From Spirochaetaceae bacterium (GTDB taxonomy: Bacteria; Spirochaetota; Spirochaetia; Treponematales; Treponemataceae): DNA of 59,983 nucleotides. Each line of letters opens with the position of its first letter. Positions within the stretch are counted from its first letter, which is position 1. Both the position numbers and the translations under genes were made by a program. The stretch is taken from assembly GCA_017936665.1 (NCBI GenBank), contig JAGBFB010000022.1:1-59983 (forward strand). The letters are read 5' to 3'. Positions 44,252-47,496 of the stretch are shown here, piece by piece. Under the pieces are notes generated by a model. It worked only from the letters and a program-made list of their open reading frames with translations. It did not search any database and was not told the DNA's origin.

Positions 44252-44741
44252 ATTTTATATTCCACTGATTTTGTAATAATTTATCTAAATTTATAAAATA
44301 TTGAACTTTATCATTAGACAAAAACCGTAAAGCATAAATTCCTTTAGAAAACAAAAAAGATTCAATTAAGGAACTAAATACAGAAAAAGAAGACAATTCA
44401 TAATCTTCAACAATTGGGGAAGAAGAAACTATTAAACCAAAATATTTTTTTGATTTATAAAATTCAGGCAAAAAATTAAAAAACTTTGTATCTAAAATCA
44501 AAACATTATAAAAATTTTCAATTAAGTTTTCTTTATTAGAACATTCTTCAACTCCTAAAACAAATTGATTTAAAAATTTATTAAAATCAAAACAAGGCAC
44601 AATATGATTATCAAAATTTACAACAAATCCGTTTGTATCAGAATGATTTAATTTTTCATTTAATAAAATACAAGAAGTAACATATTTTTCTAAAATGAGA
44701 AAATCATAATTATCATAGGAAAGTTTTACAAAGCTATTCAT
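44244..44741 (-). CDS. Divergent CheW-like coupling protein
   Basis: 165 residues. It has the general two-subdomain beta pattern of CheW (FLILEKYVTSCILL near 14-27, NFDNHIVPCFDFNKFL near 43-58, ending RFLSNDKVQYFINLDKLL), but the usual G-x-x-x-R-G core is absent. Placement between a clear cheW and cheB, with 8-base overlaps on both sides, supports a coupling or scaffolding role. It could link the six-TM receptors to CheA with changed specificity. Assignment rests mainly on context. Confidence 0.6.
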   Translation of the reverse strand: MNSFVKLSYDNYDFLILEKYVTSCILLNEKLNHSDTNGFVVNFDNHIVPCFDFNKFLNQFVLGVEECSNKENLIENFYNVLILDTKFFNFLPEFYKSKKYFGLIVSSSPIVEDYELSSFSVFSSLIESFLFSKGIYALRFLSNDKVQYFINLDKLLQNQWNIKYD

Positions 44742-45252
44742 TTTTTAAATCTCGTCTAATTTTTTGTAAAAAAGAACTAATGTTCAAAATTGGAACTTCT
44801 TTACCATTCCATAAAAAACTTGAAGAAAAATAATCAATCCCGTTTATTTTTTCTAAAGAATTTATCTCTGTTTCATCAACTTCAAAAAATTCTAAAACAT
44901 CAGTAATTTTGAAACAAAATTTTTCTTGCGGTAATTTACAAACTAAAAATAAGTTTGAAGTCTGTTCTGATTTTGAAAAAAGAATCATTGGGTCAAGAAC
45001 TGTGTAAGCATCCCCAAGACGATTAAGAACACCTTTTATGTAATTTGGAACAAAAGGAAGTTTGTACACTTTAAAATCATTCAAAATTTCTCTAGAAAGA
45101 TTAGATTCTATTGCATAAGGCTCGTCGTTCATTAAAAAAATTAAATAATTTACCTTATTTGCTTGATTTTCTTGCAAAGAACTTTCTTGAGAATCCTTAG
45201 ATAAACTATTTTCTTTTATTTCTTCCAAAATCTTATCGTTCATGATAAACAT
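44734..45252 (-). CDS. cheW: CheW-family coupling protein
   Basis: 172 residues: a polar N-terminal extension (1-30) and a CheW domain (VNYLIFLMNDEPYAIES, KLPFVPNYIKGVLNRLGDAYTVLD, FSSSFLWNGKEVPILNISSFL). VLNRLG stands where V-x-N-x-R-G is normal. It couples receptors to CheA. The first ATG (45252) overlaps a -10 box; the fourth codon ATG at 45243 would give an almost leaderless mRNA. Neither has a clear ribosome-binding site. First gene of the chemosensory operon. Confidence 0.85.
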   Translation of the reverse strand: MFIMNDKILEEIKENSLSKDSQESSLQENQANKVNYLIFLMNDEPYAIESNLSREILNDFKVYKLPFVPNYIKGVLNRLGDAYTVLDPMILFSKSEQTSNLFLVCKLPQEKFCFKITDVLEFFEVDETEINSLEKINGIDYFSSSFLWNGKEVPILNISSFLQKIRRDLKNE

Positions 45253-45280: not shown

Positions 45281-46054
45281 TTATTTTTTAGTATTTGCAA
45301 ATCCAAAACGATTTATAGGCCAAAATCTTAAAGAAGGTGAACCTAACACAGATTTTTTTGCAACTAATTGAGGTTTTAGATTACTCATATAATTTACAGA
45401 AAAATTATCGCTTTCCATAAGTTTTTCTAAATTTCTATCATAAGAATGACGCATATCCAAACTGTTAAAACGATTATCTCCCATAAGGAAATAAGAATTT
45501 TCTGGAATATACTGAGGCTCACCAGACTCAGAATTTTGAGGGAAAACCATCATATTTCTACTATCGTTATAATTGATGTAAATATATAAAAGTTGAGCTT
45601 CATTAAGATAATTTATGCGATTTTCGTTTGTTACCCAAAGCATTTTAGGAGTTTTTTCAATTAACAACTGAGTATTTTCTAATAACAATTTTGCAAAAAG
45701 TTGCTTTGTCATTAAATTTATTCTAAAAAGTGAATCAGTATACATATCTCCACCATAAAGAGAAGAACCATTTAACACTTCATTAGAAACTGATTCTAGC
45801 CAATTTGTCATAAAACCAGAAAACCACATAAATCCTGCTGGAGAATTTAATATTTTTTCTGCAAAAGCTTCGTTGTTTTGGAACATATTATAAATAGTAA
45901 GTTCTTCTGGTAAAAACAATGATTCAGGATCATCAAACATAGATAAATTTGATAATGAATATGCTCCGTTCCATTTTTTATACAAGGATTTATATTTTTC
46001 TACAAGTTCTCCACATTCTTTTGCAAAAGAAGCAACATCAAACTCACGACGATT
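45281..46054 (-). pseudogene. lepB: C-terminal part of signal peptidase I, cut off by in-frame TAA
   Basis: The 257 codons after the lepB stop continue the same reading frame without shift. They begin NRREFDVASFAKECGELVEK and carry the conserved end of SPase I: ENSYFLMGDNRFNSLDMRH (box E) and SVLGSPSLRFWPINRFG. Without these the N-terminal piece should be inactive. An independent start is possible only at non-ATG codons such as the TTG at 45985, which lacks a good ribosome-binding site. Either a nonsense mutation, a sequencing error, or read-through is involved. Confidence 0.8.
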
Positions 46055-47065
46055 TTATTCTGCCTTTAACAAACTATTATAAACATTTTGAGAAATTGGA
46101 ATATCATGAATTTTTGCCTTCAAATCTGCTGGAAGTTCGTTTAGATTCCATTCTGCCCATTTTTCATCCTGGGTAACAGGAGTAAATTCTGGATTATTTG
46201 GAGTTCTATGATACAAAATTCCATCAAGCATAACAAGTTGCTCTCCTTCAACACCACAAATACGCTTTACTAAAGGATCTGCAATAGGATTTCCGTTTTC
46301 ATCCACATTTAAATTTACCCCAGTTAAAGTTAGCATAAAAACAAGTTGTGAAGTAAAACTTTGTAATTCACGCTGACGATTAGCAGGATAATGAGGATTT
46401 TTAAACACAACCACATCACCTCTTTCGTAATTTTTCATTTCGGACAAGCCTACTTGAGTCATTGGAAACTTTGGTCCAGAAAGTGTTTTAAAAACTAAAA
46501 CTCTATCCCCTACTAAAAATTCACTAACCATAGATTCCGATGGAATTTCATATAACTGAAAAATAAAGATATTCAATAAAATAATTGTAAAAACAGCCTG
46601 AACAAAAGCATCAATCCAATCAAAAACTTCGATTACAACTTTTTTTGCTGTAGAAACTTCTTTATTTTTTGCTTCTTTAAATTCTGGATTTTTCTTAAAA
46701 AATCTTTTTTCTGAAAGATAAATTTGCACAGTTACAAAAGAAACAACAGAAACTGCAATCCAAAGAATCACACTGATTAAATCATAAGCAAAAGAAGTTC
46801 CAAAAGTTCCTGCTCGACGAAGTACAAAAACTGCTAAAAATACAAAAGGTATATATTCATACATTTTGCGAAGAATCTTATATATAGAAGAATCTTTCTT
46901 TATTTGAAGTTTATAAAAACCAAAAAAGATGAGAAATCCAGTAAAAATCAATGACAACCAAAAGGCAAAAAAGGACAAATCAACAAAGGTTGTAAATTGT
47001 AAAAAAGTAAAGATAACACATAAACTTAGTGTAATCAAATTTAAAATACAAAATTTTCTATTCAT
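46055..47065 (-). CDS. lepB: Signal peptidase I, N-terminal part, truncated by in-frame stop
   Basis: 336 residues. Several N-terminal transmembrane segments (about 8-25, 30-50, 72-83, 95-115, 152-170) lead to the catalytic serine Ser178 in IPSESMVSEF and the general-base Lys267 in PLVKRICGVEGEQ. Normal SPase I continues to the GDNRxNSxDSR box, which here lies after a TAA codon at 46057-46055, in the same frame. The full gene would be about 594 codons, a long form with an insertion before box E. LepB cleaves secretory signal peptides and is normally essential, so the break is notable. Confidence 0.85.
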   Translation of the reverse strand: MNRKFCILNLITLSLCVIFTFLQFTTFVDLSFFAFWLSLIFTGFLIFFGFYKLQIKKDSSIYKILRKMYEYIPFVFLAVFVLRRAGTFGTSFAYDLISVILWIAVSVVSFVTVQIYLSEKRFFKKNPEFKEAKNKEVSTAKKVVIEVFDWIDAFVQAVFTIILLNIFIFQLYEIPSESMVSEFLVGDRVLVFKTLSGPKFPMTQVGLSEMKNYERGDVVVFKNPHYPANRQRELQSFTSQLVFMLTLTGVNLNVDENGNPIADPLVKRICGVEGEQLVMLDGILYHRTPNNPEFTPVTQDEKWAEWNLNELPADLKAKIHDIPISQNVYNSLLKAE

Positions 47066-47145
47066 AATTTAATTATAGCAAAATTTAGGCTTTTGTACTA
47101 CAATAATTTAGTAAAACTTAGAATTTTTAAGGATTCTCACAAAAT

Positions 47146-47496
47146 ATGGAAGCAAATAACAGAAAACTTTTTAATAAAGAAGAAACTTTAGTTAGATTTG
47201 GTGGCGATGAAGAACTTTTGAAAGAATTAGCAACAATGTTTATAAATGACAGCAAATTTTCTAAAGACGAATTTGAAAATCTTCTGAAAAATGATGATAA
47301 ATCTTTAAGTGCAAGTTATGTTCATAAATTAAAAGGAAGTTGTGGCACCTTAGGCTGTGAACTTCTCTACGACCAGTGCGTTAAAGTGGAAAGTATATTA
47401 AAAGGGAAAGAAACCGGAAATTTACAGCAAGAAAAAGAAACTTTGTGTAGGATTTATGATGAGACGGTGTGGTTTCTTAGAAATTTTTTAGTATAA
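47146..47496 (+). CDS. Stand-alone Hpt (histidine phosphotransfer) protein
   Basis: 116 residues, four-helix Hpt domain with phospho-His60 in SYVHKLKGSCGTLG. The N-terminal EETLVRFGGDEELLKELATMF matches the usual first Hpt helix. It relays phosphate between receivers and kinases. It lies 81 bases from the divergent lepB and 1.9 kb from the chemosensory operon, and could serve its hybrid CheA or another phosphorelay. It lacks any other domain. Confidence 0.88.
   Translation: MEANNRKLFNKEETLVRFGGDEELLKELATMFINDSKFSKDEFENLLKNDDKSLSASYVHKLKGSCGTLGCELLYDQCVKVESILKGKETGNLQQEKETLCRIYDETVWFLRNFLV

Follow-up and report, generated by a model that had tools for sequence, protein, structure and literature searches.

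A long Treponema-family signal peptidase I gene interrupted by one in-frame TAA, most probably reflecting an erroneous base in the assembly or a very fresh mutation

How can a gene for signal peptidase I carry a stop codon in its middle and be intact on both sides of it? This question is raised by a frame in a stretch of DNA of 59,983 nucleotides (the window), which makes up the whole of contig 11, one of the 43 contigs of a genome that measures 2.58 Mb and is 99.2% complete. The initial annotation had described a 594-codon signal peptidase I gene (lepB) with one in-frame TAA, placing Ser178 and Lys267 before the stop, the GDNR box after it and 23 open codons of the same frame in between, and had offered a second lepB, translational read-through, a two-piece enzyme or a base error as explanations. 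Translation bears this description out and places the gene on the minus strand: the frame runs from an ATG at 47065 to a stop at 45281-45283, the TAA at codon 337 is the only internal stop (the terminal one being codon 595), and 23 open codons separate it from the first start-like codon, TTG 361 (Table 1).

The second open stretch is not a product of chance, since a run of 257 open codons has a probability of about 3e-10 at 28.8% G+C and the two pieces line up consecutively on a single S26 profile. The first piece covers positions 2-93 of PF10502 (55.2 bits) and the second one positions 104-150 (25.4 bits; cut-off 22.9 bits), and the read-through protein reaches 80.3 bits against TIGR02227 (cut-off 47). 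Membership in S26 is supported by profile scores above the curated cut-offs together with the box B serine (Ser178, in IPSESMV) and the box D lysine (Lys267, in DPLVKR), which, by assignment from the S26 family, we take to be nucleophile and general base, respectively. The MGDNR motif at residues 528-532 stands in the same frame but 3' of the TAA, and would share a polypeptide with these two residues only given an erroneous stop or read-through of it. Upstream, a perfect TATAAT lies 6 bases from the ATG (window 47066-47077, minus strand); hence, the lepB message may be nearly leaderless, or the true start may be located further inside.

Table 1 Features of the lepB locus (positions of the window)
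Feature	Position	Strand	Remarks
Entire frame of the long signal peptidase I (lepB)	45281..47065	-	594 codons + stop
First lepB piece	46055..47065	-	336 codons + TAA; membrane helices, Ser178, Lys267, start of helical insert
In-frame TAA, lepB codon 337	46055..46057	-	column variable, with E336 and R339 on either side invariant
Second lepB piece	45281..46054	-	257 open codons + stop; remaining helical insert, MGDNR box, C-terminal strands
Ser178 codon (presumed nucleophile)	46532..46534	-	
Lys267 codon (presumed general base)	46265..46267	-	
GDNR box, residues 529-532	45470..45481	-	
Insert predicted to be alpha-helical, approximately residues 298-503, lying between boxes D and E	45557..46174	-	
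TTG, codon 361, first in-frame start-like codon past the TAA	45983..45985	-	no Shine-Dalgarno-like sequence upstream
Divergent Hpt-domain gene	47146..47496	+	neighbour of the long gene at 23 of 53 loci of relatives
CheW-like gene, downstream of lepB	44734..45252	-	adjoins the long gene at 3 of 53 loci of relatives

The interrupted gene is of the long lepB form (about 550-630 amino acids) of the Treponema family, a label adopted here because the relatives found by alignment are named Treponema sp., Spirochaetaceae or Spirochaetales. Scanning the contigs of other genomes with the single lepB protein as query gave no match, and the same scan with the lepB alignment retrieved a few Treponema/Spirochaetales relatives together with many distant matches. 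Within the family, long lepB was matched in 264 of 274 genomes, in most of them once, and in all 128 genomes with a completeness of 90% or more and a contamination of 5% or less; completeness is lower (59-89%) in every one of the ten genomes without it. The matches listed number 150 including the gene itself, and none of the 149 others carries a mid-gene stop: eight were flagged with one stop, and on reading, each of these was found at or after query residue 588, which is the gene end. Family matches from a separate search for relatives were free of stops as well. Shared neighbours, namely the Hpt-domain gene and, in a few of the 53 loci, downstream CheW or CheB genes, indicate from gene order that the interrupted gene is located at the orthologous lepB locus and is not a spare copy. 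One relative with a complete genome of 1.14 Mb (G021) is presumably T. pallidum, and its long gene presumably TP0926. In PMC12417408, Tp0926 is called a metalloprotease, and a limited search of open-access literature retrieved no report of an interrupted lepB.

Beyond the stop, the gene is in the same condition as before it. Of the alignment columns without variation among 21 relatives, the interrupted gene keeps 46 of 46 before the TAA and 22 of 22 after it, with Ser178 and Lys267 each identical in all 21, and the column of the TAA itself is variable. In relative-rate tests against the nearest relative (G002) with eight outgroups, none of the eight comparisons revealed a significant excess of change past the stop in the interrupted gene (own-only versus G002-only changes of, for example, 22 vs 23, 25 vs 24 and 33 vs 24), and the sole significant value reflects faster change in G002. 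Codon bias amounts to 0.25 before the stop and 0.28 after it, and at the junction to 0.33 for the last 20 codons and 0.51 for the first 20 following the TAA. Signs of decay, i.e., further stops, frameshifts or faster change, were absent in the comparison of frame and relatives.

Single-codon breaks are not special to lepB in this assembly. We scanned 860 kb, roughly one third of the genome (the window and another 800 kb in stretches), for places where one stop separates two open stretches of at least 100 codons each in the same frame. Such pairs numbered 37 in a part of 460 kb and 39 in the other 400 kb; judged by eye, they include two clear cases and one doubtful case of a single gene split by one codon. 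Besides lepB, the clear case is an alpha-amylase-like lipoprotein gene (L212:27-3464, G000:C12), in which an in-frame TGA stands at C12:1689, codon 555 when the frame is read through; its paralogue on C35, 57% identical and matched over residues 1-786, has no stop there. Isolated nonsense codons thus affect genes other than lepB, which is what base errors at random or new mutations would be expected to produce. The alpha-amylase-like protein also carries Big_2 and CBM26 domains. The doubtful case, L242 (G000:C36:18272), has a TGA directly before a DNA-methyltransferase-like frame and no ATG, GTG or TTG for 35 codons, so that either the frame begins at an atypical codon or a third gene is split, and was left uncounted. 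Seven further candidates (C18:210112, C18:218558, C7:15810, C12:50390, C21:75728, C29:2432 and C36:43735) were judged by eye to be separate genes or opposite-strand shadows.

Given a core gene of the family, relatives free of mid-gene stops among the matches listed, an intact remainder and a second broken gene in the same genome, the locus is very probably an orthologous long lepB with one isolated nonsense codon that arose as an assembly base error or as a very recent mutation. As to the cause, we consider the chances of a base error to be somewhat better than even, a real recent mutation to be possible though clearly less likely, and anything else to be unlikely. Of the four options in the initial annotation, base error (or fresh mutation) is the best supported: an error and a very recent nonsense mutation would both fit all data. 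Two points speak against this reading. The assembly otherwise looks clean, with no stop within its 53 ABC_tran and 17 Response_reg matches and only the two clear splits and the doubtful one in 860 kb, and full conservation of the second half is equally expected if that half is still translated. With a base error at this codon, the product would be the usual membrane enzyme of 594 residues. A real stop would yield a 336-residue membrane fragment, which would retain the serine and the lysine but lack the MGDNR box and, going by the structure model, most of the insert and the C-terminal strands; such a fragment would be expected to be inactive, and export would then rest on a short S26 enzyme of 166 amino acids.

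A conserved second half invites the idea that both halves are made separately and assemble into a two-piece enzyme, with the break in the helical insert and outside the catalytic fold. Structure prediction lends this some appeal: the roughly 200 residues inserted between the boxes of Lys and GDNR are confidently predicted to be helical, the TAA falls into the first long helix of this insert (residues 326-340), where a split might be tolerated, and all invariant residues are kept in both pieces. The catalytic part of the lepB model, however, is of low confidence (mean pLDDT of 58.6 overall, 308 of 594 residues under 50). Moreover, a second polypeptide would need a start, and none of the usual codons (ATG, GTG, TTG) occurs for 23 codons past the stop; within the 80 codons checked by eye, no Shine-Dalgarno-like sequence precedes codons 361, 376, 383, 394 or 413, and no split relative is found among the matches listed. 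This option of the initial annotation hence found no support, and we regard it as very unlikely. As regards the predicted insert itself, a Foldseek search of the lepB model against the PDB returned no match at E <= 0.001, and the model suggests a helical character, to which our description is confined. LepB of the Treponema family carries this insert, which is missing from homologues of 331-342 amino acids in other families of the order.

Translational read-through, in which an amino acid is inserted at the TAA and enough full-length enzyme is made, would likewise agree with an open, conserved frame on both sides and with the coding bias that persists up to and past the stop. It is nonetheless very improbable. 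No anticodon reading a stop was present among the 37 tRNA genes read (36 by covariance model, all of them covered by ARAGORN, which adds one tRNA-Thr), a list that contains no tRNA-Ile and is thus incomplete; the predicted folding of the RNA at and beyond the stop is no more favourable than that of shuffled sequences (z of -0.20, 79 of 200 shuffles being as good); and the relatives listed have no stop at this position. The suggestion of read-through was accordingly not supported.

A second lepB, the remaining option, proved half right. Searching the genome for another lepB identified two further S26 genes, one of 243 codons on C32 and one with a 168-codon frame on C39 encoding 166 amino acids. 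Only the latter has both the serine and the lysine, which are kept in eight of eight aligned relatives, too. The 243-aa protein (L001, G000:C32:28763-29479) scores 94.7 bits against TIGR02227 (cut-off 47), but has an arginine at the position of the catalytic lysine. Across 30 family loci including its own (L001, L246-L275; the 30 best among 59 matching genomes), lysine is found at this position in none, with 26 loci having Arg and one each Val, Ser, Phe and Tyr, and in 11 of these 30 the catalytic serine is lost as well. In relatives outside the family (four genomes aligned), the lysine is kept. Since the lysine is missing in 30 of 30 family loci read, the 243-aa protein is, as judged from its sequence, probably a non-catalytic pseudo-protease throughout the family; an inactive S26 paralogue in Treponema is not reported in the open-access literature covered by our limited search. 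Counts of 'signal peptidase I' genes in the family would then overstate the number of active enzymes, and this by-product of the analysis is of more interest than the lepB stop. Long lepB is accordingly one of only two S26 genes with the full Ser/Lys pair, which makes an old, tolerated loss less likely.

That lepB is an old, genuine pseudogene made dispensable by another signal peptidase is hardly credible, for although two other S26 genes exist and one of them has the serine and the lysine, no decay is seen past the stop, relatives with other S26 genes still keep the long gene intact, and the 243-aa copy has no catalytic lysine in any family locus read (best 30 of 59). Similarly remote is the idea that the stop is real and fixed, so that the main signal peptidase would consist of two polypeptides (or be read through) meeting via the helical insert and, along with the dead S26 paralogue, would form a multi-subunit enzyme; if true, Treponema signal peptidase would be such an enzyme, counting a catalytically dead S26 paralogue present family-wide.

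Under the preferred reading of an isolated nonsense codon, the locus mainly cautions that one codon suffices to turn a core enzyme into two annotated fragments. Should the stop be real, the locus would amount to a natural experiment on whether a bacterium of the Treponema family can do without its long signal peptidase.

Compared with known systems, the gene shares with signal peptidase I (MEROPS S26; PF10502; TIGR02227) the Ser box, the Lys box and, past the TAA, the GDNR box, in this order. A profile built from 16 family members and used against solved structures matches solved signal peptidases with best E-values of 1.1e-14 to 6.1e-14; the solved enzymes 1b12, 1t7d and 1kn9 we take to be signal peptidase I of E. 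coli. In contrast to the solved enzymes, the protein described here has a predicted helical insert of about 200 residues, a longer N-terminal membrane part and the TAA within the insert. Long LepB of the Treponema family is orthologous, of the same length class and, in some relatives, flanked by the same neighbours, whereas the relatives read have no mid-gene stop. Finally, with single nonsense codons in draft genomes and with recent pseudogenes the gene shares one in-frame stop and an intact rest, and its genome holds a second example; what differs is that the gene affected here is a core gene of its family.
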